Of a DNA stretch of 64,000 bases, positions 8,672 through 57,299 are shown piece by piece. Under the pieces are notes generated by a model. That model worked only from the letters and a program-made list of their open reading frames with translations. It did no database searches and was not told the DNA's origin. Positions within the stretch are counted from its first letter, which is position 1. Each line of letters opens with the position of its first letter. Where the stretch lies: assembly GCF_964019385.1 (NCBI RefSeq), contig NC_088655.1, forward strand, positions 7,939,833 to 8,003,832. The letters are read 5' to 3'. The stretch comes from Sycon ciliatum. Its lineage: Eukaryota; Porifera; Calcarea; Leucosolenida; Sycettidae. The position numbers were made by a program, and so were the translations under genes.

Positions 8672-8685
8672 ACTTCGAGTTTTGT
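8672..8685 (+). repeat. left flanking direct repeat (target-site duplication) of ribozyme array
   Basis: ACTTCGAGTTTTGT occurs here and again at 10303-10316, exactly bracketing the hammerhead array. The first five bases also match the array unit, so the true duplication may be 9-14 bp. Confidence 0.7.
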
Positions 8686-9049
8686 AAGAAAGGTTTGCTC
8701 CCCACACCGGAGCTCGCGCTATTCCGCCGACTTTACTTGACACTTGACTGACTCACGACTGCCATCCAGAGCACACGAGAAGTCCATCGAACCTTCGACT
8801 CGGCAAACCTGCAAGAAAGCACCACTCCCTGCTCAATACACAGTGTTTCGGGGAATTCACCCCTCATCAGTTGAGCTTGAGTAGGCTGAGGAAGATTGTG
8901 CCTGAAGAGCACCACTTATATAGTGCTCTCCAGGCACAAACATCACCAGGGATACAAACTTACAGAGACGCTCCGCTTCCAGCGCGACAAACACCTCGTG
9001 AACACCAGATAGTAGCGTGAGTCAGTGTCGCTCCTGGACGGTGAGACAT
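8686..9049 (-). mobile_element. inverted partial retrozyme-like unit
   Basis: This is a reverse-complement copy of about 365 bp of the 477-bp unit that lies in tandem to its right. It contains the TATA-like box and a complete hammerhead ribozyme on the minus strand. The copy starts mid-unit (at the TGTCTCACCGTCC position), meets the first plus-strand unit head to head at about 9050, and ends at AAGAAAGG next to the flanking repeat. Inverted, truncated first copies are a known outcome of Penelope-like integration, which supports that mechanism here. Confidence 0.75.
8831..8876 (-). ncRNA. type I hammerhead ribozyme (retrozyme family, inverted copy)
   Basis: The minus strand carries the same 46 bases as the three plus-strand copies: helix I GCTCAA/TTGAGC, core CTGATGA, helix II GGGG/CCCC, core GAA, helix III ACA/TGT with loop CTG, and cleavage base A in GTA. 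All invariant core bases are present. Confidence 0.85.
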
Positions 9050-9080
9050 TGTATCCCTGGTGATGTTTGTGCCTGGAGAG

Positions 9081-9129
9081 CACTATATAAGTGGTGCTCT
9101 TCAGGCACAATCTTCCTCAGCCTACTCAA
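9081..9129 (+). promoter_or_regulatory. TATA-like box upstream of ribozyme, repeated in each unit
   Basis: CACTATATAAGTGGTGC lies about 40 bp before the hammerhead. The same box recurs 477 and 954 bp further on (about 9558 and 10035) and inverted at about 8916-8925. The 21.5-kb insert and the Penelope-like 3' end at 10.35 kb have a similar box at a similar distance from a hammerhead-like motif, which suggests a shared promoter layout. No experimental support. Confidence 0.45.
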
Positions 9130-9175
9130 GCTCAACTGATGAGGGGTGAATTCCCCGAAACACTGTGTATTGAGC
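9130..9175 (+). ncRNA. type I hammerhead ribozyme, unit 1
   Basis: Helix I pairs 9130-9135 (GCTCAA) with 9170-9175 (TTGAGC). The core CTGATGA is at 9136-9142. Helix II is GGGG/CCCC closed by TGAATT (9143-9156). GAA at 9157-9159 is followed by helix III ACA/TGT (9160-9168) with loop CTG. The predicted cut is after A9169 (GUA triplet). All 15 or so invariant core bases of the hammerhead fold are present. Helix I is open-ended, hence type I. Confidence 0.88.
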
Positions 9176-9606
9176 AGGGAGTGGTGCTTTCTTGCAGGTT
9201 TGCCGAGTCGAAGGTTCGATGGACTTCTCGTGTGCTCTGGATGGCAGTCGTGAGTCAGTCAAGTGTCAAGTAAAGTCGGCGGAATAGCGCGAGCTCCGGT
9301 GTGGGGAGCAAACCTTTCTTACAAATCATCGCCGAAGTCGCAACCACTACTTCATACTGTTGTGCCCAGCGCGGGCTTGCGACTAGTTGGTTTGGAGGTG
9401 ACAGCGTTGCGAATGACCGAGGGTCCTCGACGTCTGTCTCACCGTCCAGGAGCGACACTGACTCACGCTACTATCTGGTGTTCACGAGGTGTTTGTCGCG
9501 CTGGAAGCGGAGAGTCTCTGTAAGTTTGTATCCCTGGTGATGTTTGTGCCTGGAGAGCACTATATAAGTGGTGCTCTTCAGGCACAATCTTCCTCAGCCT
9601 ACTCAA

Positions 9607-9652
9607 GCTCAACTGATGAGGGGTGAATTCCCCGAAACACTGTGTATTGAGC
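9607..9652 (+). ncRNA. type I hammerhead ribozyme, unit 2
   Basis: Identical in all paired and core positions to the copy 477 bp upstream. Predicted cut after position 9646. Confidence 0.88.
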
Positions 9653-10083
9653 AGGGAGTGGTGCTTTCTTGCAGGTTTGCCGAGTCGAAGGTTCGATGGA
9701 CTTCTCGTGTGCTCTGGGTGGCAGTCGTGAGTCAGTCAAGTGTCAAGTAAAGTCGGCGGAATAGCGCGAGCTCCGGTGTGGGGAGCAAACCTTTCTTACA
9801 AATCATCGCCGAAGTCGCAACCACTACTTCATACTGTTGTGCCCAGCGCGGGCTTGCGACTAGTTGGTTTGGAGGTGACAGCGTTGCGAATGACCGAGGG
9901 TCCTCGACGTCTGTCTCACCGTCCAGGAGCGACACTGACTCACGCTACTATCTGGTGTTCACGAGGTGTTTGTCGCGCTGGAAGCGGAGCGTCTCTGTAA
10001 GTTTGTATCCCTGGTGATGTTTGTGCCTGGAGAGCACTATATAAGTGGTGCTCTTCGGGCACAATCTTCCTCAGCCTACTCAA

Positions 10084-10129
10084 GCTCAACTGATGAGGGG
10101 TGAATTCCCCGAAACACTGTGTATTGAGC
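10084..10129 (+). ncRNA. type I hammerhead ribozyme, unit 3
   Basis: Identical in all paired and core positions to units 1 and 2. Predicted cut after position 10123. Its 3' unit is incomplete and ends at the flanking repeat. Confidence 0.88.
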
Positions 10130-10302
10130 AGGGAGTGGTGCTTTCTTGCAGGTTTGCTGAGTCGAAGGTTCGATGGACTTCTCGTGTGCTCTGGATGGCA
10201 GTCGTGAGTCAGTCAAGTGTCAAGTAAAGTCGGCGGAATAGCGCGAGCTCCGGTGTGGGGAGCAAACCTTTCTTACAAATCATCGCCGAAGTCGCAACCA
10301 CT

Positions 10303-10316
10303 ACTTCGAGTTTTGT
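10303..10316 (+). repeat. right flanking direct repeat of ribozyme array
   Basis: Second copy of ACTTCGAGTTTTGT, directly after the truncated last unit. Together with 8672-8685 it marks the empty site into which the array inserted. Confidence 0.7.
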
Positions 10317-13580: not shown

Positions 13581-14499
13581 TGAGGTATTCCCCGCAATGC
13601 AACAGGCGTGGGAGTGCGAACTGCCCGCACACAATCCATTCACTGGCAGATGCGACAGAGTTCCATATAGCTGGCCTGGAGCGTAGTACAGTCTGAAGGG
13701 CAGGAGGCTCTCATAACAGTATTGATCCTGCCAGCGGTTCACCAAGGGCCACTTCTCCGGGCAGACGGGAATTCGGCAGAATGCACTTTTAACACTGAGC
13801 TTAGCAAGATACAGCGGGGCGAGCAATTGTCGAATCATGTTTGCAGCATTGTCATCTTGACATTGTGGAGAGATACGGTCTGCTGAAATGTAATCGTTGA
13901 CACTTCGACCCTCCAGGCTTTACAAAGGGTGTGTCGTGTGTAACTTCCCGTTCCTCTAGGAACCGCATCTAGGCCGGAACAGCACAGAGACGAGAAAGGG
14001 GGTGAAGAACACGGGCCAGCTGTTTCAAGCCTGCTGCAAGAAACGGATCGTTGCGCAGAAATATAATCTGGGTTAGCATGTGACCGTGTTAAATTCAATG
14101 GATCCCAGTTAGTTGAGTGGTTGCCGATGAAACCTACCACAACCCCACAATTACGACCATGTGCAACATACCTCCGGAGCATAGGATCAGGATATGAGTC
14201 CAGTAATTTTGAGAAGTGAGAAACTGAGTGCTTACACAGTTACTGATAAGGCCTTACACTTTGCCCTGGGGTGCTCCTGTCGGCACTGGAGGTAGCACTG
14301 CCTGAGCTGACACGTGCAAGCGCCGTACTCGTGTAGCGGCATACGATTGCGGTACGTGATGCGGATCTGTACTGCTGAGTAGGACGAAAGGCGCACGGAA
14401 ACGCTGGCGGGTGCACTGAGCTGCACTGCTGGCAGGCGGGTCATGCTGTTCCAGTACACCGCGAGGCGCAGTTGCCACAAGTTGATATTGATAACCTGG
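13581..14499. other. no feature recognised
   Basis: GC-moderate sequence with only unsupported short frames. No repeats or splice-bounded frames were recognised. Confidence 0.4.
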
Positions 14500-14504
14500 C
14501 TTTG

Positions 14505-14640
14505 GAGGTTTTATTTTTATTTTTATTTTCCATTGCTATCAGGTTCGGCTTAATTCCCTCTGTGCGGCGCTGATGAGTCAACAAAGGACGAAACAGTTGT
14601 CCGCAGATTGAGTATTGATAACGTCCAGTTTCTAGGTGGC
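14505..14640 (+). mobile_element. short interspersed element carrying a second hammerhead family
   Basis: The block TTTTCCATTGCTATCAGGTTC to CCGCAGATTGAGTATTG is shared, on the opposite strand, with 30940-31045. Both copies have the hammerhead in the same place and a T-rich start. A further decayed copy on the minus strand is at 56489-56534. Confidence 0.65.
14561..14606 (+). ncRNA. hammerhead ribozyme candidate, family B copy 1
   Basis: CTGATGA at 14570-14576, helix II GTC/GAC (14577-14579 with 14587-14589), GAAA at 14590-14593, helix III ACA/TGT with a two-base loop (14593-14600), cleavage base C14601 in GTC. Helix I is weak: GCG pairs with CGC, then one mismatch. The core is intact, but helix I is poorer than in the copy at 30953-30996. 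Confidence 0.6.
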
Positions 14641-19443: not shown

Positions 19444-19889
19444 TGTACAGTCTATATCCAGCTTACTGATAATGGTGCAGAGCCACTCCGTTTTATGTGT
19501 ATATCAGCACTGCTTGTTGTACTGTTGTGCATTATCATACTACTACGCATTCGTTCCTCATGTTGTATTCACGTCAGCTGACGTCTGATGCACGTAGTCG
19601 CGTACACTGCTTTCATTCCTCACGTTGTATTCACGTCTGATGCGCGTAGTCGCGTACACTGCTTTCACTTCTCATGTTGTATTCACGTCTGATGCGCGTA
19701 GTCGCGTACACTGCTTTCGCGCGATCTTTTGATTTGAAGGTTTTTGAATCTCCGTTTCTGCTTCGAGAGAAGCAGAACTTTCCTTTGTACTGGAAGATGA
19801 TTTCCAGCAGAGTCAGAGTTAAACATTATAATACAGTCTTCTAAAACAACGAGTCGTGTGCTATCCGGAGGCATATTCGAGTAAGAACA
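19444..19889 (+). repeat. 5' LTR of BEL/Pao element 1
   Basis: Starts TGTACAGTCTATATCC and ends AAGAACA, matching the 3' LTR at 29825-30395. Contains three copies of a 52-bp tandem unit (TGTTGTATTCACGTC at 19561, 19623, 19675), against six in the 3' LTR. A 40-bp segment near the right end is absent from the 3' LTR. The LTR would supply promoter and polyadenylation signals. Confidence 0.8.
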
Positions 19890-25106: not shown

Positions 25107-25242
25107 TGTAGTGATGTAATCATGTACATCTGTATAGTGTGCGCATGCGTGCATGCTTGCAGTAGAGAACTCGCAGAGCTTGAAGACGAAGCCTGCAATG
25201 GCTACCTCCAGACTTGCATTGTTGTAGTGTTGCCCATCTACA
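25107..25242 (+). repeat. Gypsy element 1, 3' LTR
   Basis: 136 bp, TGTAGTGATG ... CCCATCTACA, with TGTAG/CTACA ends. It matches both 5' copies. The following CTGGAT continues the BEL/Pao gag of the host element. Confidence 0.85.
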
Positions 25243-26517
25243 CTGGATATTTCGGTATTCCGCAGTTCCAGATAAAGCCGCTAGAACTGCCCAAATTCAA
25301 TGGCCAACAGGAGAGCTATCTTCGATGGCGCCAGCGCTTCATGCATCTCGTAGACGACGGTCTCATGTCAACAGAGGATTATAAGATGGCACGGCTGCGT
25401 GAGGTGCTGGATGGTGGGAAGGCTGAAGAACTTGTCAGTGGCATTCTGGACGGGCCTGGGGCATACAGTGCCGTGCTGAACGAGCTCGACCAGTCGTTTG
25501 GCGGCGACAACCAACAGCTGGAATGGCAACAGCAGGAACTATTGGCCAGTCCCCGGATCTCTCGGGAAAATGACACAACAGCTTTACAGCGACTCGCAGT
25601 GACGCTGAGAAACGTCCGGCCTGAAAATGGCCAACGTCGCACCCGGACGCGAACTGTATATAGCAGTGTCTCAGAAGCTCCAAAGACGGATGCTGTCACG
25701 ATTCCTGGATCGGTATGATGACCATAGCTGTGATGTGGAGGTGTTGTCTACCTGGCTGCTGAGGCAGGTGCACCGAGCACAGCAGGTGGATGCGCGCCTC
25801 GCACTGCCCAGAGAAGCCGCCACAGCATCTAACCGCAAGCCGTACGACGTCCACAGCAGCAGAGCGCCCAGCTCAGGTCAGCACGCAATCAAACATGCAT
25901 TCCATGCCTCGAGGGGTAAGCCAGCGGAGACTCCCAATGCATGTTTCAAGTGTGATGGTAATCATCTCCTGAGCCAGTGCCCCGCCTTCACAGCAATGTC
26001 GGTACGAGGACGCTGGGATTTAGTGAAACCCACACCTCTCTGTATTTGCTGCTTGCGACCCGGCCACCATAGCATGTCCTGTAGTGGGTCCACCTGCGCA
26101 AAGTGCAACGGCAAGCACCATGCACTGCTGCATTTCGACAAGTTCAGCAGCAACAAGCTTCAGCAGAAGCAGTCTAATAGCAGTAACATTCAGGGCAAGG
26201 TACCTGTCAAGGAGCAAGTTCTGCATGTGTGCTGCTCGCAACCACGAAGAACGTCTCTCCCTGCCATATCATTCATGACAGTTCCGGTCACAGTTCGCAA
26301 CGGAAGTCAAGAAACCGTATGCAGAGCACTACTTGATCCTGCATCCACCAGCGAGTATATCAAAGCCGCAGTGGCTGAAGCTATCGGCTTGACTGGAGAT
26401 CCGGAACCGCTCCAAGTGACCACACTTGGTGGCAGCCAGATGGAAGCCATGCGCCGACGTACACCGGTGACCTTTCAAAGTACAGACAGCAGCTTGACCC
26501 ACCAGATCAGCGCTTGA
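25243..26517 (+). pseudogene. BEL/Pao element 1: gag core, zinc knuckles, protease
   Basis: The gag core reads IKPLELPKFNGQQESYLRWR, then DDGLMSTEDYKMARL and VSGILDGPGAY, a conserved BEL/Pao Gag region. A frameshift near 25620-25660 leads into 25627-26517, which has a FLDRYDDH-type helix, cysteine/histidine knuckles (CFKCDGNHLLSQCP, CICCLRPGHHSMSC, CAKCNGKHHALLH) and a retroviral-type aspartic protease start, VCRALLDPAS, where the usual DSGS active site has become DPAS. A TGA ends the frame at 26517. Gag packages the RNA and the protease matures the polyprotein. The protease here looks dead. Confidence 0.8.
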
Positions 26518-27237
26518 GTTCTGCCATGCGTCACAGCCGACACCGTGGCAGTCGACTGGAGTCAACACCAAGATGCCTGGACGCATCTGCACGGCATACC
26601 ATTCCCAATTATGGACACCGGCGACATTGGTCTGCTGATTGGTGTGGATGCTGCGCCACTCCACACAGCACTGGAAGAGCGACGAGGCCCCGATGATGCG
26701 CCGATTGCCCGTCGAACCCCGCTCGGTTGGATTTGCTATGGCCGGGAGGACAAGAGCACCAGCAAGATTCATGTTGTGTTTGATGCCGCTGCTGTCTGGA
26801 AAGGTCGCAGCATCAACGCAGAAATGGGCACGGGACCACGCCTACAGAACGACATCGTTCGCATCCTGTTGCGGTTCTCTGCTGAACCAGTAGCTCTCGT
26901 TGCCGACATCAGTGAGATGTTTATGCAAGTAGGGCTCAAAGAAGAAGATCAGCGGTTCACTCGGTTTCTGTGGCGTGCCAGCCCAGACGATGATATACAA
27001 GTGTATGAGTTTAATCGGTTGGTCTTCGGCCTAAGAGCATCACCCTATCTCGCCGGGAAGGCTCTGCTGCAAACAGCACAAGATTTCGCCACCGACTCAA
27101 TGCGCAGCAACGACCTTCTCCAAGTGGTCGAGGAGAGCTTCTATGTCGACGATCTTCTGGACTCCTTCCAGTCAGCTTCTGTGGCAATAGATGCCCAACA
27201 ACAACTGACACAGCTACCACAGTCCGGTGGTTTCTAG
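26518..27237 (+). pseudogene. BEL/Pao element 1: reverse transcriptase (internally deleted)
   Basis: Reads the pre-RT BEL block (GLLIGVDAAP, then ARRTPLGWICYGRED), jumps directly to KIHVVFDAAAVWKGRSIN, and continues with ADISEMFMQV (first catalytic Asp), FGLRASPYLAGKAL and the YVDDLLDS active site before a stop at 27237. About 150-200 residues normally found between the GW block and the KxRVVFDAAA block are missing, so there is an internal deletion near 26755. Confidence 0.82.
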
Positions 27238-28668
27238 CTTCGCAAGTGGCTAAGCAACTCTACCGAGGTGGTTGAGTCGGTGCCAGAAGCCGACAAAACC
27301 CAGCAGGTGTCCCTGGATGTCAACAGTAACCAGCACTGCACTCTGCCGTCGTCTAAGACCCTGGGCGTCATGTGGCTTGCTGACAAGGACGTACTTCACC
27401 TTCCGATATAAGCCACCAGAGGCGTCCCAGCAATTAACCAAGCGATACGTTCTACGACAGATGGCAATGATCTTCGATCCAAGAGGTCAGCTCACACCGT
27501 TCACGATGCGTGCACAAGTACTGTTTCAGGAGGCATGTGTCGCTGGATATGGTTGGGTTGAGCAGCTGAATGACGACGACACGGCCCGTTGGAAGCGCTG
27601 GCTATCAGAGTTACCCGACCTGGCACAGATCCACGCTGACCAATGTTTCAAGTACACCGATGCGGATCCAACCTGCGTGAAGACAGAAGTTCACACATTC
27701 GTCAATGCATCGGATGCAGCTACAGCAGCAGCCTGCTGCGTCCGTTCTGAATATCCAGACGGACGCGTGAAGGTGACACTGTCGCGGCCAACTCCTTTCA
27801 AGAAGCTAAGTATCCCGAAGCTTGACCTGAATGGAGCAGTCCTTGGAGTACAGCTAAGTAAATAGCTGGAAGCAGCACTGAAGATACCATTGACGGAGCA
27901 CCGTTTCTGGACGGACAGCCTCCATGTGTTGTACTGGCTGAGATCCCACAGCCGACGATTCAGCACAGACATCGGTGTAAAAATCTCGGAGATTCAACGT
28001 GCCACATCACCTCTGCAATGGCAACATGTGCCCGGTAAGATCAACCCGGCAGACCTACCCACACGAGGAATGCCAGCCACCTCGCTAGCAACGAGCAGCA
28101 CATGGTGGACAGGACCAGAGTTTCTGTCCAAGCCATCGACCGAGTGGCCGCAATGCGATATCACCGTCCCAAGCAAGCTTCTAGGAGAGACTAAGCGACA
28201 CCAAGCGCTGACGTTTGTCGCCGAAGCCACATTATCTAGACTGCGTCTCGAGAACTTTTCATCCTGCAACCGACTGAAGCATGTCACGGCTTGGATATTC
28301 CGGTTCTCCTCAAACTGCCGAGGTGCCAAGAAGGGGGAAGAACCCGAGGGCAGTGATGCGGTCTCTCGTGTAGCTGTGTTGCCGGCAGAGAATGTAGCAG
28401 TTCCCGAACTGTCGGCGACTGAAATACAGCGAGCAGAACGGCACTGGATCAGTATTGCCCAGCAGGAGTGTTACTCGGCCACTATTTCGACCTTACAGCG
28501 GGAGAAAAGTGTTAAGCCCTCGGACCCTTTGCTCCGGCTCAATCCACTCCTAGACACCGCTGAACGGCCATTTTTTACTACGCGTTGGAGGCAGGCTGGA
28601 CCAGGCATCAGCAATGTCGGAAGGTACGAGGCAGCCACTGATACTACCGTATCAGCATCCAGTATCTG
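27238..28668 (+). pseudogene. BEL/Pao element 1: RT thumb, RNase H and integrase zinc region
   Basis: Continues with LRKWLSNS, KTLGVMW, then IFDPRGQLTPFTMRAQVLFQ and GYGWVEQL, the RNase H-like start VHTFVNASDAATAAACC (Asp of DAS replaced by Asn), and KLSIPKLDLNGAVLGVQL. A stop at 27863 and another frame then give FWTDSLHVLYWLRSHSRRF, WQHVPGKINPADLPTRG and LLRLNPLLD, the segment before the H2C2 zinc module. At least two stops and two frame changes are present. Confidence 0.8.
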
Positions 28669-29666
28669 ACCTCATCATTGCCAATGAGGATCGCAAAACC
28701 CACCATGCGTCGACACGAATCATCTGTGGGCCAACCTGACAACTTCGTATTGGCTGATCAAAGGCAAACAAGCGATCAAATCGCATCGCCTACGATGTAA
28801 TGGCTGCATTCGGCAGTGGAGGAAGCCTGCAGACTAGATCATGGGCCAACTTCCTGCCGCTCGAGTTGCTATGACCAAGCAGGCCTTCCAGCATGTTGGA
28901 GTAGACTTCGCAGGCCCATTCCTAACCGGTCAAGGTCGTGGACGCTCACAATTCAAGCGCTATCTCTGCCTCTTCACATGTCACGAGCATGCCATTTAGA
29001 GATGGCCTACGATGTGTTTTTGACCGATTTTATAAGCGCTGCAGAGCACCACGTCTAGTAGTGTCAGACAACGGCAGAAACTTTGTTGGAGCCGAAAGTG
29101 AGCTGCGTGATGCCCATGAAGCTATTGACCGAGGTCAAGTGGTCACCTGTACAGCGACAAAACAGCACACGTCGTGGATGTTCAACCCACCCCAGGCACC
29201 ACACCATGGCGGCTTCTTCGAAGCGCTTGTCCGGTCAGCCAAGCGAGCAGTGTTCGGTATACTGCATTCTGCTAACTTCATTGATGAAGAGCTGCAAACT
29301 GCCTTCGTTCAGGCGGAGGCCTTGTTGAACAGCCGGCCACTGACCACAGTTGGATTAGATGCTGATGATCTCGTCCCCTTGACACCTCAGCAGTTCCTCA
29401 TTGGCCACATTCAGGTAGAAACGGCCATAGAAGTGGCACAAGCTTCTACGACACCCGCACACCCGCAGAGACGGTGGAAAGCTGTGCAGGTTGCTGTGGA
29501 TCACATCTGGCTACGTTGGTTGAAGGAATTTGTGCCCACACTTAATATCCGACAACGTTGGAGAATGCGCAGACGGAACATTATTGTTGGTGACATGGTA
29601 TTATGGTATTCGTCAAAGGCAAAACGTATCGGAGTCCGACCAACTTGCTGGTTCCACTTGAGGTAG
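28669..29666 (+). pseudogene. BEL/Pao element 1: integrase
   Basis: Fragments in shifting frames read HVGVDFAGPFLTGQGRG (first catalytic Asp), RLVVSDNGRNFVGAE (second Asp), FNPPQAPHHGGFFEALVRSA (final Glu) and LLNSRPLTTVGLDADDLVPL, closing with a C-terminal DNA-binding module WRMRRRNIIVGDMVLW. These identify a BEL/Pao integrase. Several stops between 28720 and 29060 disable it. Confidence 0.82.
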
Positions 29667-29824: not shown

Positions 29825-30395
29825 TGTGCAGTCTATATCCAGCCCACTGATTATGGTGCAGAGCCACTCCGTTCTTTGTGTATATCAGCACTGCTTGTAG
29901 TACTGTTGAGCATTATCATACTACAACGCCTTCGTTCCTCATGTTGTATTCACGTCAGCTGACGTCTGATGCGCGTAGTCGCGTACACTGTACTGCTTTC
30001 ATTCCTCACGTTGTATTCACGTCTGATGCGCGGAGTCGCGTACACTTCTTTCACTTCTCATGTTGTATTCACGTCTGATGCGCGTAGTCGCGTACTCTGC
30101 TTTCACTTCTCATGTTGTATTCACGTCTGATGCGCGTAGTCGCGTACTCTGCTTTCACTTCTCATGTTGTATTCATGTCTGATGCGCGTAGTCGCGTACA
30201 CTGCTTTCACTTCTCATGTTGTATTCACGTCTGATGCGCGTAGTCGCGTACACTGCTTTCGCGCGATCTTTTGATTTGAATGTTTTTTGAATCTTCGCTT
30301 CTGCTTCGAGAGAGGCAGAACTTGCTTTTTTACTGCAAGATGATTTCCAGCAGAGTCAGAGTAAAACATTATATTCGAGTGTTCGAGTAAGAACA
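29825..30395 (+). repeat. 3' LTR of BEL/Pao element 1
   Basis: 571 bp, TGTGCAGTCTATATCC ... AAGAACA, preceded by the purine-rich AGGAAGGGGGATA (polypurine tract). Holds six copies of the 52-bp unit (start positions 29942, 30009, 30061, 30113, 30165, 30217), twice the number in the 5' LTR, so the tandem block changed after insertion. Confidence 0.85.
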
Positions 30396-30939: not shown

Positions 30940-31045
30940 AATACTACTCAATCTGCGGACAGAACTGTTTCGTCCTTTGTGGACTCGTCAGCGCAGCACA
31001 GAGGAAATGAGGCCGAACCTGATAGCAATGGAAATAAAAAATTCC
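30940..31045 (-). mobile_element. short hammerhead-bearing element, family B copy 2
   Basis: Minus-strand copy of the element at 14505-14640: ATTTCCATTGCTATCAGGTTC, then CCTCTGTGC and the hammerhead, ending ATTGAGTAG. It is the best-preserved of the three copies in the window. Confidence 0.65.
30953..30996 (-). ncRNA. type I hammerhead ribozyme, family B copy 2
   Basis: Minus strand: helix I CTGCG/CGCAG, core CTGACGA (the fifth base is the variable position 7), helix II GTCC/GGAC with loop ACAAA, GAAA, helix III ACAG/CTGT with a two-base TT loop, cleavage base C in GTC (position 30958). All helices are fully paired and all invariant bases are present. Confidence 0.85.
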
Positions 31046-31931
31046 AATCAGGTCCGAAAGGAAAATACTATATATTTAAATAGTGCAAATCAACGAGATT
31101 GAGAGACGAGCTAGGGCCTGCACAACATACGGTAAGTAGCAGGGCATGCCTAGCATTTGCACAGCTACACTAGAGAGTATTCTTTTGTTTGAAACAATTA
31201 ATGAAGAATTTCGAGGCAAAAATGAAGAGATCGAGAGTGAATAAAGAAGCACGCGCGTCCATGATTCTCACGTTCGGCAAGGCCATCGCAGAGAGGTACA
31301 ACGTCTAGTTGGACTACAGCAACAGCAAGAACAAGATGTTACTGCATGAGAATGTCTGCACGTCTGGTGTTCAGTGATGTACGCTTGAGAATGTACATAT
31401 ACCGCAAGTGAACAGGTTAAAACAAAACAAAGGAAACACAAAGAGAGAATGAGCTAGAGCAAACCATGCGCCGGACAGTTCCTTCCTTCATGAGTCAGAG
31501 TCGATCCAGAGTGCTCAAGGCCGAGGCACGTACGTACCGTGACACCTCTATCTCTGCCAGACGGATCGGTTGAGCACGGTATGGGGACATGGCGATCAGT
31601 GCTCAACAGCAGGCTTATTGCTGCCGAGAGATAGAGCATGCAGGACGACGAACTGGCTGGACAGGGACGATGGTCAGGAGAGACAAGGAGCAGTGGCGTG
31701 ACAGCTGATGAAGAATAGAGCTCACGAGGAGAACAAAACAAGTAGAGCGTAGTGCATGCCGAGCATGACTGGACTGACATTTAGTGTTAACAAAATTTTC
31801 AGACTGACAACGACGACACATGACGATGACGACGATGACGAGACTGTCCCGGAGCTGGGGATGCTTGAACTGCTGGCTAGAGGCGGAGGGTTCTTTCCTA
31901 ATTCTACAGGTGTAGGAACCACAGCTGCCAC

Positions 31932-34362: not shown

Positions 34363-36098
34363 CAGAGGTGAGTTTTTTTGTTGTTGAAATATTCGAATCG
34401 CGAATCGTGTTGTGAGATTTATTTTGTGCCTAGGCTACAGCGGACCGTATTTCTTTCTCCTTGAGATCGGTGCTGAAGATAATAGTAACCTTTTTCTGGT
34501 CTGCCTTTTCCTCTCCAGAGCCATCTTCACCAAGCCGCGATCGCGATCAGCAGCCCTGAAGTGGAAAAATCGATTTTCCAACGATCTGGTTGGACATCAG
34601 CCACTAAAGTACTTCTGATTTGCATGTAGTGACAACAGCAGCCATCCTTGGACACCTTGCAAAACAGGAAAAGCCACTGGTGGAAGCGACTGCTATGAGG
34701 TGACGATAGCAGTGGTGATCGCTGTTTTGTCCAGTCGAAGGGCTAGCCAACCCAGAGGAAGCATTGAAAAAAGACGATTAGCAGTGCGTGGTATTTGTTG
34801 AGCGTGAAGAGCTAGAGGAGGACAGTGCAAACACATGGACGGAGTGGATGGTGTTTGAAGAACAGTGTGCTGTGTGCCGGCTGGTGGTGATGGTGGTTTT
34901 TGTCAGCATGTATTCGTGCTGCTTCTTGCGCTGGAACACTTCTCGCCCCGGAATGCAGATTGCGTGCTCCCTGGCCCTCAGTCGGCAATGGGGCATTTGT
35001 TCCAGGAACATTACCCCGGAGCCAGTGATGAGTCGTACCTTTGAAAAGTCGAAGCTTGCTGTTAATCGCAAGCGTTGCGCAGTGGATTGCTCCCTCTTCG
35101 AAGCACGAGGGTCAAAGCTTGCCGCCGTCTGCAGCAAAGTGTGTGTGCGGTTCTTTCGAACCTATGAATATACCCCCCCCCCCCCTCTCTCTCTCTCTTA
35201 GGAAGACTGCATGTTGAGAGTGAACTATTTTCTAGTATATTTAATGTGAGACGGGCTGTTTACGCCCAAGATGAAGATACAGTTTTTTTTCTGTTTCTAT
35301 ACCTTCCTAATAAAATACATTGTGACAGAGCTTTCAGTCATACTCCGCTGTACTACATCCTCAACCCGCCACCACCATGCGCTCTAGGCCGAACTAATGC
35401 ACGAAGCATAAACACACCAGCACAGCAAGGACACTTCCGTTGACAGATATTGTTTACACCTCTAGACAACTGTTTCGTTTCTTCGAGCTCATCGTTAGAG
35501 GAGGATAGTAGCAGGATATTAATGATGATAATAATATAAGATGATAGACGGTTCACGGTCCGATATTGATGACTGGAGATCTAAGAAAGCAATGACAGTG
35601 ATTGCGAAATGGATAATATTATCATGATTATATGCCAGTCTGGTAATGCGTTGTACTGGTGGACAGTATTGAAATCATCACTGCATTCGATGCAAATATT
35701 GGTATACCTTGGTTTCAGTATTGGAAAAAATGAGTAAGAGAACCTGGTTGATTTGGTTGCATCTGCGACTAGCTACTGGGTGTTGTGATCAGCAATGTTA
35801 CCATGGGAGAAAATACGAGCGCAAGGATCTGTTGGGTCTTGTTGTGCTGTGCCGGTGCGAGAACCCTAAGTGCATGGCAAAATAGAACTGTTTCATCCAC
35901 AATGCAGAATGTCTTGCGGTACATGGTATTGATGACTGAACATCTCGCCCAAACGGAGGAACAAGACATCTTTCCAGCTCAGCTAGCTATATACCGTGAA
36001 ACGGATGATTAACTTGTGCCACGCATGCCAGCTTCTGTTCCATTCGGCCCAGGCTTAGACAAATCAATGCCAATAGCAGCTGATCCTCCATTACATGC

Positions 36099-41079: not shown

Positions 41080-41806
41080 TCATGTGACCAAGAAGACACA
41101 GGTCGTCGACTGGAGCCGGTACACATCCAGCTATGAACATCTGAAGTTCATATACTTTCCCGAAATCTCCAGCACCACGGTCGACCTCCTGATTGGTCTA
41201 GAAGTCATTGATGCCCACGCATCACTCGCGGAGTACAGAAGCAGCAGCGGTCGACCAATTGCCCGCAAGACGCCACTGGGATGAGTGTGTATGGGCCCAA
41301 CGCCCAGTGCACCCAGTGATGACGAGTGGTCCGTCAACTATGTGCATGCTTTATACGGCGAATGCAGCATAGACAGCCTGGTCCAGAATTTCTGGAATCT
41401 GGAGGCAGTCGGTATGAAGCACGAAGGCACCTACATCACCTCTGCAGAGAAGCTGGCTGAGGAGATCTTTCAGAAATCCATCAGCTTCCATGATCAGTGA
41501 GTCACCATTGCAGTCCCATGGATCCACAGCAACGACGAGCCTGGTGTCACCGCTAATCGCGCCATGGCAGACCATCGCCTGTGCATGCTAGGGAAATCAC
41601 TGGACAAGCGTCCGGAGCTGAAGGCAGCATACGGCAAAGTCATATGTAGCCACATTGACAAAAGCTATGTGCGCGCAGTGTCGGCAGCAGAGGTTGAGGC
41701 AGATGGCGACGACCAGTGGTTCCTGCCGCATTTCGCCCTTGTACGAGATGACAAGGCCACCACGAAGGTACGTGTCATCTTTGATGCTGCTGCCAAGTAT
41801 GACGGT
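41080..41806 (+). pseudogene. BEL/Pao element 2: pre-RT and RT start
   Basis: Frames 41082-41284, 41285-41500 and 41564-41866 read DLLIGLEVIDAHA, ARKTPLG, FWNLEAVGMK, HRLCMLGKSLDKRPEL and KVRVIFDAAAKYDG, consecutive landmarks of BEL/Pao Pol. The coding text is interrupted after KYDG by the Gypsy insertion and resumes at 46870. Confidence 0.78.
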
Positions 41807-42193
41807 TGTAGTGGAACCCACGTTCGACCAGCCAGCACTAACGCAACACTTCGGATTAGGGAATGAATTATTTACAAGAGAATTGGAAGAGACATAGAAC
41901 CAGACTGAAGCACACGGAACTAAAGGATCAACTCAACTACTGAAGTACAGAGAGACGAGCATGCAATCTGAGAAAGAAGTGCAGCTACACAGCTGACAAA
42001 AAAACTAAGAAAAACTGAAAGGCGACATGACGTATATGCAGCGCAGCTAAGCACGTGGCTAGACACATGCACAGCATGAGAGGTGTACACATAAAGCAGA
42101 GGCGCGCGCATGGGTGAGTGTGTACACAGCATGCATAGCAACATACATTGTGACACAAGAGTCATAAGGCACCTAATATAGCAGTTCATAACA
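41807..42193 (-). repeat. Gypsy element 2, 3' LTR
   Basis: 387 bp, TGTAGTGG ... TTCATAACA on the plus strand (TGTTATGAAC ... CTACA on the element strand). It differs from the other LTR at three positions that I can see (one indel, two substitutions). Flanks CGGT and CGGC suggest a 4-bp target duplication. Confidence 0.92.
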
Positions 42194-42205
42194 TCACTCC
42201 CCTAG
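42194..42205 (-). promoter_or_regulatory. polypurine tract, Gypsy 2
   Basis: On the element strand TAGGGGAGTGA lies directly before the 3' LTR, the expected plus-strand primer site. Confidence 0.6.
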
Positions 42206-42215
42206 GTGCCATTGA

Positions 42216-45200
42216 TCATCCACTGTATCTAGCTGGCTGTCGTCGATTACCAGGGCCTCGGAGATCGTAGCGCTGAGTCGGCATGTCAGCCGCAAACTCG
42301 ATGCTCACCACATTATCACAGGCAGCTGGCTCTGGGCGATCTTCGGCAGCATCATGGTTACCATCATCTAGTGTTCCATCTACCTGCTGGGCGTGTCCAG
42401 GCTTGACGATATCAACGTTCACGACCTTCTCTCTGCCGTCAGCATGCTGGATCACCAGGGTCGATGGCGAGACTATCTTCAGCACCGTCCAGCCACTCTC
42501 ATATGGCGTCATGAGCTTCTGACTCCGGTCTGGGCGACGTAGCATCACCGGATCATCGACACGGTATGGTGACTCTGTTGGACCGCCTGACACAGAGTCA
42601 TTCGAGGACAGTAGTGACTCAACAAGGTCTCGAATTCGAGCAGCGCGCCCGGCGAGTCGGTCTACCCATTCACTGGCGCTGTATGCTGTCGGGTCGTGAT
42701 CAATTACTAGATCGCGCCCTTCCCAGCCCGTGATGGCCAGCCTTGGCGATATTCCGGTTGTAGCATGGCGACGTCTATTGTAGTAGAACAGAACCAACTC
42801 CAGCTCAGACGTCCAGTCACTGGTTTCCTCGAGCGCCTTACGCAGGAGACCGATGATCGTGCGGTTGAGCCGTTCAACCCCTCCTTGTGATTGAGGATGT
42901 CGAACTGCACCCGTTTTCACCACCACACCAAACTGTTCCAGGAGGGCTGCTACGACCGCGTTCCGGAACTCAGTGCCGTTGTCCATGCGAATGACAGACG
43001 GCGGGCCCCACCGGCAGCAGATCTTGGTCAGTGCGGCTGCTACGCTCGCTGCATCGTGTCGACGTAGTGGCTGTACCTCCGCCCACTTGGTGAACATGTC
43101 GACGCATACCAGGCAGCAGTGGTGCGCTCCACTCTGGCCAAGCTCCAATGTGTCGATCTGTATGACCTCCCATGGTCGTCCTGGTACGTCTGGACGCGTT
43201 GGCTCGACAGTCGGTCCCCGTGCCGGGTTAGCTGCAGAGCAAGGCACACACGCTTGGACAACACTCTGGCATTTCTCGGCCATCAGCGGCATATAGCAGC
43301 GCTTGCGCAGTGAGTCATGCATTGTCGTCCAGGTGGCATGGCCAGAGGTCTTGTGAGATGCTTTCAGTACTTGGTCTTCAAGCTCAGGTGGTATGACTGG
43401 CACTTGCACGACACCGTCGAGTGGCAGCTTTACTGAACGCATCAGCACACCGTTATGGTCCAACAGCTGATCACGGACCGGTCTGTACAGCTTCGACGAC
43501 AGGGGGGTTCCCGACTTCAGCTCATCCAGCAGCTGTGATATCTCGGTATCGGCTTGCTGCGCATCCTTTATCTCACTGAGAGTAACGGGCCCGATAGCAT
43601 GCTTGTGCGTTGCCACAGAAACAGAACAAACATCACTCGGCTCGGCTGTACCCTTGGGCCACCGCCTCGGGACACGGGTGAGCTCATCGGCCGGGTTCTG
43701 GTCAGTCGGCACCCACTCCACTCGGACCTTGAGGCCGACCGTTTGGACGAGGTCAGCAATCACTTCCAGTCGCCGCTCAACCAGTATCTTGTGCAGCCCA
43801 CCGACTTTCACTCGGCGCACATTGCCGAGGACCTGCTTCAGCCAGCCGTACACTGTCTTTGAGTCGGTGACGAGTCGTACCGTCTGCAGGTGCCATTGCG
43901 CTGCAAGCGACAGTCCACGCACGGCAGCATCTAGCTCCGCCACATTGATGTGCTTCTTATCGGCTGTGTCCCGCAGCCATGTACCGTCTTCGATGACTTG
44001 GCCGTTCAGCTGGAGGACCACACCGACTGCCAGATCCGAGGCATCGCAGAACACAGCCCAATCTCCATCGGACTCGGCTGATGCATGCCACACACCACGG
44101 ACGGGGTCTTGAGCGGACAGCTGCTCAGCAACTTCGTCAGCACACTGAAGAACGCTAGGTGGAACCGGCGTGTCCCATCTGTCCACTGCACTTGATAGCC
44201 GCTTCAACATTGAGCAGGCTGGGCGAAGCCATGCGCACACTGGATAGTGGCTTGTGAGCCGACCCGTCCATTGGAATACACCACGCTTTGTCAGCGGTTG
44301 ACGGAAGCTGAGGTCGACTCCATCGCGGCGAGCCCACATGATGGTACCATCAGCAGTCGTCGATAGCTTCAGGCCAAGCACTCGCGCCTCGGGTAGATGC
44401 TCTGGTGGCTTTGTCGGCAAGCCATACCGTGCTAGCTCTGCAGCGACGGCCTTGCGCTTCTCCGCTGGCGTGAGGACGTCATCAACATAGTTGTCAACAT
44501 CAGGCCATCGTCGCGTCACCCACCGAACAATGATGTCCATGAATTTTGGTGCAATCGATAGACCAAAACCCATCCGTGACATGGCGTACAGCTTCCCACG
44601 CCACACCACGACTTGGTAGCGCAAGAGGGATGGGTCGACTCGTACCTGCAAGTACGCCTTACGTATGTCGACAAGTTCAAACTGGCTGTCTGCAACCTGT
44701 CGCCACTTGCGGATCTTCTCACCGCATGCTGGGGCATCAGTGCCTGGGTTCGACTTAATCACCGCATTCAAGCCTCGGTAATCGAGACAAGGACGAACTG
44801 GGGTCGACTCCTTGTGGGCTTGGTCCTTGGCGAGCAGCGGAATGATGGCCGCCGGAGGACCGTGCGTAGCCTCGTCGTACTCGATCAGGTAGCCATTCTC
44901 GACCCAGGCGTCCATCTCGTCACAGAACTGCGACTCTTGCTTGTCTGACAGGTTGTGCCTCGCGTACTGTCCGATCCCTGAGCCGATCGGAGATGTAGGA
45001 GCTTGCCCATCACGCCACTGCCAGTGCAACGTCCAATGCTGCTTGTCGTTGTCCCACCGGAGCTCTCCGTCTTCGGCCTTCAGGGTCACACCACGATCGT
45101 CCTCTGTGACGTCCACATGACGGAGTGTGCTCTCAACGTCAGCTGCAGCAGTAGCGGCTGCACCGGTATCTCTAGGCTGAGGACCAAAGCACACGCCATT

Positions 45201-46460
45201 GACCTCGCCGTCCTCGCCATACCTGAGTCGAACGCCACCAACACCAGCTATAACGTCAGCACCGAGGAGGAGGTCTGCTGCCACAGCCGTCAATGAGTCG
45301 ACAACGCAGGCATTCACACGCACTCTTGGCAGACTAACCGGTTCACCATCTCCTTGGCGCTGCAGTTCCAGATCAACTGCTCCTCTGATCTTCACCTTGC
45401 TGCTATCCACGGATACAACAGACACACGTGGCTGAGCAGTGAACGGAATCTTGTGAAGTTTGAGGAACTCGACCGTAACCATTGTGTAACTTGCACAAGT
45501 GTCCACTGCTGCTCTAGCACGTGCCCATTCGCTGCCTACCACGCCTCGCACGTCAACGTGGATCCTGGGCAGTGAAGCTCTAGTAGCCTCGGCTACAGTG
45601 CACAAACACGCACCCCTCGCCAGGGAGCCACTGTCTGCAGCCGTTGCTGCACCAGACGATTTCCGCTCTTGCCAGGCTTTACGCTCCGGACAGTCACTCT
45701 TCATGTGACCTGGCTTGTCACAGAAGTAACAGGTTCGAGGGCCAGTACGCTCGCCACGCGTTCCTTTACCAGCACCACTCTTGCGACCAGGTTTCTTCGC
45801 TTTCGGGCACTGCCGCGCCATGTGGCCAACTCCGCCACAGTTGAAACACGCCTGCTCATCCGTGGTGGCAGCCGCCACAACAACATCGCCACGTACTCGT
45901 GTCAAGTGGTCCGAGGTCGCAGCCTTCAACGCCCGTACCACGTCCAGGCAACCCGTCACACTCAACTCTTTGCCCGCCATCGTAAGTCTTAGCTCTCGGG
46001 CAAACTCTACCGGCAGTCCCTTGATCAGCTGCTCTATGATCATCGGGTCCTTGTCGTCATCAGCCTTGTGCCCCGCCATAGTACTCAGTCGCTGCAAATC
46101 GGCAACGTAGGCGTCGGGGGACTCATCCACGCGCATCGTCCGTGAGGTGAATCTGGCGTACGCCTGCGCCTTCGTCAGAGTGAACGACAGTCCCATTTTC
46201 GCCAAGACTTTATCTTTGTCTTTCTGATCGCTTGCCGGCATCCGTGAAAATACAAGAAACGCGTCATCCGTCAGGAACAACGGAAAATTCTTCACTTTCT
46301 TGTCGTCCGTGTCCCAACCTTGTATGTTTGCAAGCACCAGAAACTTATCCCAAAAACGTCCGAAATCGTCCCCGTTCCCACGGAACGGCTGGAGGAAGTT
46401 GTCAAACTTGAGCGACATCTCGCTGGCGTGGCAGGGTTTGCACTCGTCAATACAACACAC
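42216..46460 (-). CDS. Gypsy element 2 Gag-Pol polyprotein, unbroken
   Basis: One 1414-codon frame; the likely start is Met15 (codon at 46418), because the Gag-like block begins there. Order by residue: Gag about 15-180; two CCHC knuckles at 205-218 and 244-257; protease around Asp320, reading DTCAS where DTGAS is usual; reverse transcriptase about 520-700 with Asp598 and YVDD at 658-661; RNase H with Asp806, Glu842 and Asp866; integrase with the H2C2 zinc site (His1036, His1041, Cys1071, Cys1074) and catalytic Asp1103, Asp1160 and Glu1196. The order gag-PR-RT-RH-IN is that of Ty3/Gypsy. There is no env-like gene. Single-frame Gag-Pol needs no frameshift signal. The lack of stops and near-identical LTRs imply a recent insertion. 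The protease glycine change may or may not be tolerated. Confidence 0.93.
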   Translation of the reverse strand: MCCIDECKPCHASEMSLKFDNFLQPFRGNGDDFGRFWDKFLVLANIQGWDTDDKKVKNFPLFLTDDAFLVFSRMPASDQKDKDKVLAKMGLSFTLTKAQAYARFTSRTMRVDESPDAYVADLQRLSTMAGHKADDDKDPMIIEQLIKGLPVEFARELRLTMAGKELSVTGCLDVVRALKAATSDHLTRVRGDVVVAAATTDEQACFNCGGVGHMARQCPKAKKPGRKSGAGKGTRGERTGPRTCYFCDKPGHMKSDCPERKAWQERKSSGAATAADSGSLARGACLCTVAEATRASLPRIHVDVRGVVGSEWARARAAVDTCASYTMVTVEFLKLHKIPFTAQPRVSVVSVDSSKVKIRGAVDLELQRQGDGEPVSLPRVRVNACVVDSLTAVAADLLLGADVIAGVGGVRLRYGEDGEVNGVCFGPQPRDTGAAATAAADVESTLRHVDVTEDDRGVTLKAEDGELRWDNDKQHWTLHWQWRDGQAPTSPIGSGIGQYARHNLSDKQESQFCDEMDAWVENGYLIEYDEATHGPPAAIIPLLAKDQAHKESTPVRPCLDYRGLNAVIKSNPGTDAPACGEKIRKWRQVADSQFELVDIRKAYLQVRVDPSLLRYQVVVWRGKLYAMSRMGFGLSIAPKFMDIIVRWVTRRWPDVDNYVDDVLTPAEKRKAVAAELARYGLPTKPPEHLPEARVLGLKLSTTADGTIMWARRDGVDLSFRQPLTKRGVFQWTGRLTSHYPVCAWLRPACSMLKRLSSAVDRWDTPVPPSVLQCADEVAEQLSAQDPVRGVWHASAESDGDWAVFCDASDLAVGVVLQLNGQVIEDGTWLRDTADKKHINVAELDAAVRGLSLAAQWHLQTVRLVTDSKTVYGWLKQVLGNVRRVKVGGLHKILVERRLEVIADLVQTVGLKVRVEWVPTDQNPADELTRVPRRWPKGTAEPSDVCSVSVATHKHAIGPVTLSEIKDAQQADTEISQLLDELKSGTPLSSKLYRPVRDQLLDHNGVLMRSVKLPLDGVVQVPVIPPELEDQVLKASHKTSGHATWTTMHDSLRKRCYMPLMAEKCQSVVQACVPCSAANPARGPTVEPTRPDVPGRPWEVIQIDTLELGQSGAHHCCLVCVDMFTKWAEVQPLRRHDAASVAAALTKICCRWGPPSVIRMDNGTEFRNAVVAALLEQFGVVVKTGAVRHPQSQGGVERLNRTIIGLLRKALEETSDWTSELELVLFYYNRRRHATTGISPRLAITGWEGRDLVIDHDPTAYSASEWVDRLAGRAARIRDLVESLLSSNDSVSGGPTESPYRVDDPVMLRRPDRSQKLMTPYESGWTVLKIVSPSTLVIQHADGREKVVNVDIVKPGHAQQVDGTLDDGNHDAAEDRPEPAACDNVVSIEFAADMPTQRYDLRGPGNRRQPARYSG

Positions 46461-46463
46461 ACG

Positions 46464-46481
46464 TCCCGGGTTTCGGCACCA
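46464..46481 (-). promoter_or_regulatory. primer binding site, Gypsy 2
   Basis: On the element strand TGGTGCCGAAACCCGGGA starts two bases after the 5' LTR. The TGG start and position fit a tRNA primer site. Confidence 0.75.
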
Positions 46482-46483
46482 GT

Positions 46484-46869
46484 TGTAGTGGAACCCACGT
46501 TCGACCAGCCAGCACTAACGCAACACTTCGGATTAGGGAATGAATTATTTACAAGAGAATTGGAAGAGACATAGAACCAGACTGAAGCACACTGAACTAA
46601 AGGATCAACTCAACTACTGAAGTACAGAGAGACGAGCATGCAATCTGAGAAAGAAGTGCAGCTACACAGCTGACAAAAAACTAAGAAAAACTGAAAGGCG
46701 ACATGACGTATATGCAGCGCAGCTAAGCACGTGGCTAGACACATGCACAGCATGAGAGGTGTACACATAAAGCAGAGGCGCGCGCATGGGTGAGTGTGTA
46801 CACAGCATGCATAGCAACATACATTGTGACACAAGAGTCAAAAGGCACCTAATATAGCAGTTCATAACA
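46484..46869 (-). repeat. Gypsy element 2, 5' LTR
   Basis: 386 bp, nearly identical to 41807-42193. On the element strand it lies upstream of the polyprotein and should carry its promoter. Confidence 0.92.
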
Positions 46870-55862: not shown

Positions 55863-56041
55863 ATGAGTACATTTTTACGCATTCTTGTTGTTGTTCTGTG
55901 TTTGCCTTCTTCTTGAGACTCCCTTTATCACCTGACCTTGTTCTCACTTTTGTCACTTAGGGTATGCCACGTTTCTCTGCAGAATGAGCGCAATTGCGCC
56001 AATTTAGCCCTATAAAGATCAGTCTATTCAACATCATTATG

Positions 56042-56085
56042 CCTCCACTGATGAGCTCAGGAGGAGCGAAACAGCTGTCTGGAGG
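56042..56085 (+). ncRNA. type I hammerhead ribozyme, family C
   Basis: Helix I CCTCCA/TGGAGG (six pairs), core CTGATGA at 56048-56054, helix II GCTC/GAGC with loop AGGAG, GAAA at 56068-56071, helix III formed by the self-complementary ACAGCTGT, cleavage base C56079 in GTC. All core bases are present. With no real loop, helix III would be stable mainly in a two-molecule (dimeric) hammerhead, as described for Penelope-like element ribozymes. Confidence 0.82.
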
Positions 56086-56226
56086 GTCATTGTCAATATC
56101 AATCTATATACCGGAATTGTCCTCGCTGTGGTGATGGTGATGTGTGTGCAGAGTTTGGATTGGCCAAGAGCGCAATGTGGTGGTGTGGTGTATTGGACTC
56201 TGGCACCATTACAGCTTGACTTATAA

Positions 56227-57299
56227 GGGCCCGGTCCCACATGCAGTGGCGGATCCGCTGGAGCAACAAGGTTTTGCGGGAGTGGTGTCGCACCTCTCCT
56301 GCGACAAAATGCTTGCGTGGTCTCACATGCTCACGCATGCACGGCGAACGAAGCGAGCACGCCTCTCTGACTTCCAAAAAATTCACTGCCGCTCTCCTGC
56401 AACTCAAGCATGCTTTCACTTTGGAAGTATGCGTGCACGTACATACAGTAGTCATTATACTGATGGTCTACAGTACAATGTACTGTGTCTGTGGATAGAA
56501 CTGTTTCGTCCTTTGTTGACAAATCAACACAGCACTGATGTACTGATGTCAGTGTTGATGTAGATACTAGGTGTTGGACAGATCGTTGTTTTTGTTGAGT
56601 ATCAAGCATTAGCTACATGGACATGTCATGGGTCCGGTATTGTTGACTTTGAGTCTTTGTTCTGTATAATCTGAAAGAATGGATTTTCCGTTTGGTAGAG
56701 GTCGATTGGCGAGACGTTGTCGACATTTTGTTGCTGAATACTAGTACGAACTTGTTGAGCAGCACGTCGACGATAACAAATGATAACTGCAACAGATACT
56801 GGTAATAATAGTACATGTATCGCTCTTGCCAGACCTACATCACAGTGGTCCCCCTGCGTGGTTTTACATGATGGCCATGCTTGGCTGCCCACGGGTCCGG
56901 GATTTGGTCTTTGGCCGATGCCGCAGCTGTCGGTTTCAGCTTCAGCTTCTCGGCTATCCACCTATCGCTCCGTATCTCTCTTCATCCCTTGGTCAAATGA
57001 GTCTTGACTTCAACATACATGTACAACTGCAGCCGTAGCTGTTCTGACTCAAGTCGAAGTGTCCACGTCATGATCGAAAATAAAATCGAACAACACAAAT
57101 CGCTCACCATGTCGGAGTGTCGCAGGAGCGGAACTTCCGCAGGAGAGTATACGCACCAAACATTTTGGAGTAGACGATTTGAACTTTCCGCCACGGCGGA
57201 AGTTCCGCTACTCGCAGTTTCATGATGATACACACAGTTTCATGATGACACCGTTGCAGCGGATCCGCAACTCTCAAGTGCATGTGGGCCCGGGCCCTA
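56227..57299. mobile_element. candidate DNA transposon with inverted ends
   Basis: AGGGCCCGGTCCCACATGC at 56228 corresponds to the inverted AGGGCCCGGGCCCACATGC ending at 57299, and GCGGATCCGCTG follows on both sides. The interior lacks a recognisable transposase. A minus-strand frame at 56626-56961 is unassigned. The flanks hint at a TTA-type target but I could not fix a duplication. Confidence 0.5.
56489..56534 (-). ncRNA. decayed hammerhead, family B copy 3
   Basis: The minus strand retains the ACAAAGGACGAAACAGTTCT segment of family B, but the core CTGACGA has become TTGATTT and helix I is partly lost. Not expected to cleave. Confidence 0.55.

Follow-up and report, generated by a model that had tools for sequence, protein, structure and literature searches.

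Animal retrozymes are already known, as are Penelope-like elements as candidates for mobilizing them: Cervera and de la Pena (2020), in the available text of their account of animal non-LTR retrozymes, name these elements as strong candidate helpers (PMC7229834). Rotifer Penelope elements, as described in the available sections of PMC3846280, carry one pLTR in inverted orientation next to direct copies, with palindromes, a TATA box, and a tail of 31 bp on one of the arms. The Penelope element of the anole, according to the accessible part of PMC11167929, cuts and extends both target strands, prefers 5'-ATT-3', and uses two adjacent internal starts whose interval corresponds to the tail. The mover of animal retrozymes and the RNA form that is moved have so far been argued by analogy.

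Here, we analyze a locus at positions 8686 to 10302 of a 64,000-nucleotide stretch of DNA (the window). The stretch comes from the genome of Sycon ciliatum, a calcareous sponge. We conclude, with a probability of roughly 0.75, that this locus belongs to a non-autonomous family of animal retrozymes in S. ciliatum and was inserted Penelope-style, through a cleavage step, an RNA circle, a ligase, and an enzyme that we infer.

In common with animal non-LTR retrozymes, the family has short non-coding tandem units, a type I hammerhead ribozyme, target duplications of more than 4 bp, a strongly folded unit RNA, and a weak stem III like that of amphibian copies (PMC7229834, available text). The Sycon unit is 477 nt long and has 53% GC, whereas the same text gives repeats of 150 to 450 bp, RNAs of about 170 to 400 nt, and less than 50% GC for published animal retrozymes. 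We take those figures as the range of known cases rather than as a definition and file the Sycon family as a variant, although both values count against our reading. Sponges are not named among the retrozyme hosts in the available text of PMC7229834, which also does not report two arms with two fixed ends, as found in 29 of 33 head-to-head Sycon copies. Plant LTR retrozymes, as far as PMC4918200 and PMC7229834 describe them in their available portions, likewise combine a hammerhead, non-autonomy, and an RNA circle (putative in Sycon) but differ in their type III hammerheads, LTRs, 4-bp target duplications, and 600- to 800-nt circles.

The likeness to Penelope-like elements lies in the form of the insertions, in which an inverted arm precedes a direct one and a tail of about 33 nt corresponds to the 31 bp of the rotifer elements; a palindrome with a TATA box, ATT-rich targets, and reverse transcription from inside the RNA, as proposed for Sycon, are further shared traits (PMC3846280 and PMC11167929, available parts). 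Target duplications outside repeats measure 11 to 15 bp in the Sycon retrozyme, compared with 8 to 10 bp in the rotifer elements (PMC3846280, available sections). Unlike Penelope-like elements, the Sycon unit contains no reverse transcriptase or GIY-YIG open reading frame (no ATG frame exceeds 44 amino acids), and its hammerhead has all three stems, whereas Penelope-like hammerheads are described as minimal in the available text of PMC7229834. A full-text literature search found no paper on a hammerhead ribozyme in Porifera. As far as our searches show (few subscription papers were covered), what is new is a calcareous-sponge family with larger and GC-richer units, paired fixed ends, and one sequence per insertion.

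Results

Complete hammerhead ribozymes in 477-bp units

Four letter-identical 46-nt type I hammerheads lie inside the 477-bp units of the locus (Table 1). The first-pass annotation of this DNA, made from the letters alone, had reported three on the plus strand and one inverted, in units with an exact 477-bp period; all four are present at those sites with the core and all three stems, and the plus-strand cores are spaced 477 and 477 bp apart. Read from the sequence, stem I is GCUCAA/UUGAGC (6 bp), and ACUC/GAGU extends it past an internal loop. The core follows in the order CUGAUGA, stem II GGGG/CCCC, GAAA, and stem III ACA/UGU, with a predicted cut after GUA. Stem III has only 3 bp and a 3-nt loop and is near-palindromic.

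Table 1 Features of the retrozyme insertion and its units (window coordinates)
Feature	Position	Strand	Details
Entire insertion (both arms), bounded by the target-site duplications	8686..10302	.	
Left copy of 14-bp target-site duplication, ACTTCGAGTTTTGT	8672..8685	+	14/14 identical to right copy
Right copy of 14-bp target-site duplication	10303..10316	+	
Inverted arm, 363 nt, 1 mismatch to unit	8686..9048	-	unit 387 round to outer end at unit 272
Direct arm, 1254 nt = 2.63 units of 477	9049..10302	+	unit 1 to outer end at unit 300
Type I hammerhead, unit 1	9130..9175	+	motif, descriptor, and covariance model; predicted cut after 9169
Type I hammerhead, unit 2	9607..9652	+	motif, descriptor, and covariance model; predicted cut after 9646
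Type I hammerhead, unit 3	10084..10129	+	motif, descriptor, and covariance model; predicted cut after 10123
Type I hammerhead of inverted arm	8831..8876	-	motif, descriptor, and covariance model
20-bp hairpin (palindrome), TATA box at tip	9067..9110	+	z -9.1; just before hammerhead
Repeats of the 20-bp hairpin	9544-9587, 10021-10064 (+); 8896-8939 (-)		follow from 477-bp period
Predicted 477-nt monomer or circular RNA	9170..9646	+	predicted circular fold -193.5 kcal/mol, z -4.5, 72.5% paired
Tail, segment between the two putative reverse-transcription starts (unit 273-306)	9321..9354 and 9798-9831	+	

Assignment to type I rests on the complete core, on a strict descriptor, and on a covariance model of our own. 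The descriptor demanded the core bases and stems I, II, and III of at least 4, 4, and 3 bp. Across the whole window it matched the four unit hammerheads and one further site, 30953-30996 (-), and it matched nothing in 400 shuffles of the window that preserved dinucleotide composition. With the limits relaxed to 3/3/2, there were 8 matches in the window versus 15 in all 400 shuffles summed.

The Rfam check recommended in the first-pass annotation (RF00163) had a divided outcome. Rfam release 15 gave no match anywhere in the window at gathering thresholds and no hammerhead match in the retrozyme locus at E ≤ 10; at E ≤ 1 over the whole window, its hammerhead models matched solely 30952-30997 and 56030-56102. 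By contrast, a covariance model trained on three window hammerheads from outside the 477-bp unit family matched all four unit hammerheads (24.5 bits, E of 1.8e-4 over 64 kb), with only standard pairs in both alignments displayed. We do not take Rfam's silence as a refutation, since the unit hammerheads are found by this independent model and deviate from the RF00163 consensus in H17 = A, in the 3-bp length of stem III, and in stem II (GGGG/CCCC). Minimum free energy folds miss the exact hammerhead (-15.7 kcal/mol for the hammerhead stems versus -22.1 for the minimum); a hammerhead core cannot be scored by nearest-neighbor rules.

In a sample of copies from the genome (see below), the 46-nt motif is unchanged in 149 of the 160 units that span it. 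Differences from the window unit occur at 0.0029 per base in the hammerhead and 0.0102 in the whole unit, most of the latter rate coming from four positions, 306, 422, 447, and 465, where the window unit is unusual or polymorphic. When private differences were instead counted against the majority base, in units with at most 5% difference, the rates were 0.0019 per base for the hammerhead, 0.0025 for the tail, 0.0090 for the palindrome, and 0.0021 for the rest of the unit (0.0046 with polymorphic sites included). The idea that the hammerhead is conserved above the rest of the unit is rejected by this comparison. As its private-difference rate equals that of the remaining unit, we claim no selection on the hammerhead, and the parity (0.0019 versus 0.0021) is a point against our overall reading; the copies are young, and conservation figures for the hammerhead therefore carry little weight in either direction.

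A promoter-like hairpin and a non-coding unit

The TATA-like box placed ahead of the hammerhead in the first-pass annotation is TATATAAG, read from the sequence at 9084-9091, 38 nt upstream of the hammerhead start at 9130. It occupies the tip of a 20-bp palindrome whose sequence is exact in 98 of the 150 units sampled from the genome. The units are non-coding, as had been proposed: the longest ATG frame of the circularized unit has 44 amino acids on the plus strand and 24 on the minus strand. Downstream of the TATA box, the first AUG is that of the hammerhead core (9139 on the plus strand, at the same spot in every unit), and it opens the 44-amino-acid frame; the open reading frame of the anole Penelope element also begins within a hammerhead (PMC11167929, accessible part).

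Unit positions 273 to 300, within the segment bounded by the proposed reverse-transcription starts, rank 4th of 477 windows in A+C content. An AC-rich stem-loop at the start site appears only in short pieces folded alone and is all but absent in context (pair probability of at most 0.002), which speaks against our reading.

A single insertion with two arms

The locus at 8686-10302 is a single insertion with a 14-bp target duplication; the 14-mer, ACTTCGAGTTTTGT, occurs twice in the window on the plus strand and nowhere in it on the minus strand. The earlier description of the locus as an array holds for the tandem 477-bp units but not for the whole, which is one head-to-head insertion rather than a plain array plus a stray inverted copy: 0.76 unit of inverted arm meets 2.63 units of direct arm. 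The units are nearly identical (2 of 477 positions differ between units 1 and 2, and 2 of 305 between units 1 and 3), and each of the four differences among the window copies is private to one copy. Just past the end of each arm, the unit RNA matches the terminal 5 nt of the corresponding target strand, as priming would predict, and simulation for the window copy puts the chance of each such match at about 0.001.

A transcript across the head-to-head joint (8686-9411) would form a long RNA hairpin from the 363-nt inverted arm, a possible source of small RNAs.

Paired outer ends across the genome

The search for other arrays called for in the first-pass annotation returned at least 220 unit matches in the 538-Mb assembly, dispersed over many contigs. 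We examined 39 further places with their flanks, these being the best-scoring matches listed (40 of 789 candidates scored), so that older copies are under-sampled. Together with the window copy they resolve into 47 block groups, of which two that are clipped at a locus edge (in L056 and L065) were omitted from end counts. Among the 45 complete groups, 37 are head-to-head, and 33 of these pair an outer end at unit 300-314 with another at 262-283; one has two short ends, and three have an end elsewhere (L035, L041, and L053, the last running into N).

After removal of two duplicates (L060 and L062), 29 of 33 head-to-head insertions combine a long with a short end (~306/~273), leaving one short-short pair, no long-long pair, and three with another end. 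If ends were independent and equally likely, at least 29 unlike pairs among 30 classifiable ones would have a probability of about 3e-8 by our own arithmetic. The insertion signature of Penelope-like elements, a tail of about 30 to 40 nt on one arm, is thus present in those 29 of 33 insertions. The eight remaining groups are not head-to-head: seven have one end in either class and the second elsewhere, one has ends in neither class, and two of the eight are short divergent fragments (in L047 and L050).

Direct repeats of at least 8 bp flank 35 of the 45 complete groups. No repeat was found in the other 10, which weighs against our reading. Many of the 35 lie within TTA repeats and are uninformative, but the target duplications in other sequence, measuring 11 to 15 bp, are informative. 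A (TTA)n array with n of at least 4 adjoins 24 of 41 insertions, an ATT-rich target preference; the background is one such array in the window and 44 in 115,871 bases of flanks, the latter control being too high because the flanks include the repeats of neighboring insertions and loci with several insertions were counted more than once. The dispersed copies with target duplications of more than 4 bp indicate mobility, and with the non-coding tandem units and the type I hammerhead they uphold the retrozyme-like identity first suggested for the locus. Its link to Penelope-like elements, also suggested then, now draws on insertion ends at 40 genomic places and not on analogy alone; the helper enzyme itself is putative. 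Neither an exact pattern nor blastn found the unit in collections of viral contigs, genome contigs, and phages.

Two pairs of loci share the same arms: L057 and L062, on different contigs with the same flanks as far as displayed, and L059 and L060, about 10 kb apart. Both pairs are probably duplicated segments that carry the insertion.

One sequence per insertion

We compared units at 10 sites that vary between insertions, chosen without requiring fixation (an earlier set of 5 sites had been chosen partly for fixation within insertions). Only 8 of 378 cells of insertion and site are mixed, whereas 500 permutations gave 100.7 on average and never fewer than 89. The two arms of an insertion, left and right, are in agreement in all 224 comparisons in which each arm is uniform; this agreement is partly trivial, since the minor allele is rare at several of the 10 sites, and the permutation is the better measure. 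The 34 insertions with at least three units hold 80 singleton differences versus 5 common to part of the units. For these counts, as for the 10-site comparison and the majority-base rates, block edges were trimmed by 12 nt; untrimmed blocks give 117 singletons, with the partly shared sites still at 5. Among the 80 singletons, 64 are confined to their own insertion, 4 are fixed in other insertions, and another 4 reappear there as singletons; 13 of the 80 lie at CpG. The 5 sites that vary among units within an insertion count against our reading.

Arm lengths range from 0.09 to 7.12 units, and 58 of 86 arms exceed one unit (duplicates and clipped groups included). Inner ends are scattered over the unit: 1 of 82 falls within 6 nt of the ribozyme cut, where our own arithmetic expects about 2 by chance. 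Because the inner ends do not pile up at the cut, we see no sign of cDNA run-off at a cleaved 5' end. Overlaps of at least 1 nt occur at 23 of 37 head-to-head joints. Judged from these sequence patterns, homogeneity within insertions and scattered inner ends fit a putative RNA circle better than they fit a cleaved linear RNA or a genomic multimer, and they lend indirect support to the 477-nt circular RNA proposed in the first-pass annotation.

Penelope-like helper candidates

The assembly contains at least 13 GIY-YIG matches (150 of 944 candidates scored), some of which may be other genes. L070 contains an 807-codon open frame (674 codons from the first ATG) with a GIY-YIG domain above the Pfam cutoff; Pfam called no reverse transcriptase domain in this frame. 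Among the 64 relatives of the frame listed, 38 carry RVT_1, 3 carry GIY-YIG, and 1 carries both. We call these Sycon genes Penelope-like because reverse transcriptase kin are paired with GIY-YIG. At L071, a minimal hammerhead-like core lies 42 nt from the start of TATATAA; the corresponding distance in the retrozyme unit is 52. Only 10- to 14-nt matches link the unit to the Penelope-like loci L070 and L071, and the helper is therefore best given as a class of protein rather than a named element.

L071 also holds a 1.24-kb inverted repeat (99%), a head-to-head habit resembling that of the retrozyme.

Discussion

We propose that transcription starts at the TATA box and palindrome directly ahead of the hammerhead and that the hammerhead, probably as a dimer, would cut multimers into 477-nt monomers; dimer cleavage is proposed because stem III has 3 bp yet is near-palindromic. 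A host ligase would close the monomers into circles. A Penelope-type reverse transcriptase-endonuclease would nick both target strands, and the 3' ends of the two nicked strands would both use a single circle as template, with priming at unit ~306 for one strand and at ~273 for the other. The resulting cDNAs would each extend over anything from part of a turn to several turns, and their ends would be joined head-to-head.

With somewhat less assurance, we favor the idea that one circle templates both strands at once, the enzyme seating the primers in the same ~33-nt segment, and that each insertion, with its fixed long/short pair of ends, arises by double rolling-circle synthesis; on this view animal retrozymes would parasitize Penelope-like elements. 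In such double priming the Penelope-type enzyme is perhaps dimeric. If this is true, animal retrozymes would need only a promoter, a hammerhead, and the ~33-nt start segment.

The template might instead be a long uncut tandem transcript, with the other steps unchanged. The weak stem III may make the monomer hammerhead cut poorly, and multi-unit arms and the absence of ends at the cut site would be explained equally well. Differences private to an array should then reach its daughters, yet only 5 sites are partly shared and just 4 of 80 singletons recur as singletons, and the two arms agree in 224 of 224 comparisons; we consider this template unlikely.

About as improbable is mobilization by a LINE through target-primed reverse transcription and twin priming, which would account for the 11- to 15-bp target duplications, the inverted structure, and the joint overlaps (23 of 37). 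The window does contain an RVT_1 open reading frame, at 52181-53554, which we take to be a LINE. Evidence against a LINE comes from the 29 of 33 insertions whose two outer ends are fixed, each strand having its own, and from the 3' end, with no poly(A) in the flanks displayed and no simple repeat in copies outside TTA targets. The (TTA)n targets tell against it too. A tail, a pair of start sites, and a preference for ATT are reported traits of Penelope-like elements (PMC11167929 and PMC3846280, in their available parts).

Homogeneous multimers would also be expected if a DNA polymerase amplified an extrachromosomal DNA circle that then inserted, but we reject this very improbable route, which by itself does not predict fixed outer ends with random inner ends. 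The notion of an ordinary satellite grown by unequal crossing-over, with the hammerhead as a passenger, accounts for the exact 477-bp tandem period and is scarcely credible, being contradicted by the target duplications, the defined outer ends dispersed over many contigs, the head-to-head symmetry, and the star-like differences.

Insertion of a retrozyme circle by a Penelope-type enzyme stands as our preferred reading, and further observations pull against it. In contrast to the 5-nt primer matches of the window copy, the start sites used by the anole enzyme lacked homology to the cut DNA, and insertion of the anole element did not need ribozyme cleavage (both from the accessible part of PMC11167929). 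In Sycon, the unit lacks sequence kinship to L070 and L071, and the L070 frame lacks a Pfam reverse transcriptase domain. The Sycon genome nevertheless records insertion copy by copy, in paired fixed outer ends, one sequence each, and ATT-rich targets. The ~33-nt segment and the protein class are now concrete candidates, and the insertion of RNA circles by Penelope-type enzymes becomes testable.

Other hammerheads and repeats in the window

A second hammerhead family forms mini-insertions at 14496-14612 (+), 117 bp, and 30947-31057 (-), 111 bp. The direct repeats at their ends are 10 bp long in the first (TATTGATAAC) and 13 bp in the second (AAGGAAAATACTA); the two share their 3' end (..GCAGATTGAG), and an imperfect hairpin marks the 5' end. 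Its hammerhead at 30952-30997 scores 30.1 bits with RF00163, under the gathering score of 34. A genome search gave at least 40 matches to the family, with 40 of 306 candidates scored, and a decayed third copy lies in the window at 56488-56533 (-), with an E of 2.1e-8 for covariance model R1. A third hammerhead family is represented at 56042-56085 (+) and 35459-35501 (-). The first copy has a fully palindromic stem III (ACAGCUGU) and scores 28.6 bits with RF00163; the second is decayed, and the two remain alike downstream of the motif.

Two stretches that are 93% alike, at 19444-19830 and 29825-30373, contain 52-bp tandem repeats, and the second follows open reading frames at 25122-29666 that are presumably BEL/Pao-like. 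The window also encodes an LTR-retrotransposon-type protein with integrase and zinc-knuckle domains and relatives in S. ciliatum. Direct repeats with 99% identity, at 41805-42193 and 46482-46869, flank an open reading frame of 1414 amino acids; the repeats and this frame (41805-46869) are probably a young LTR element.
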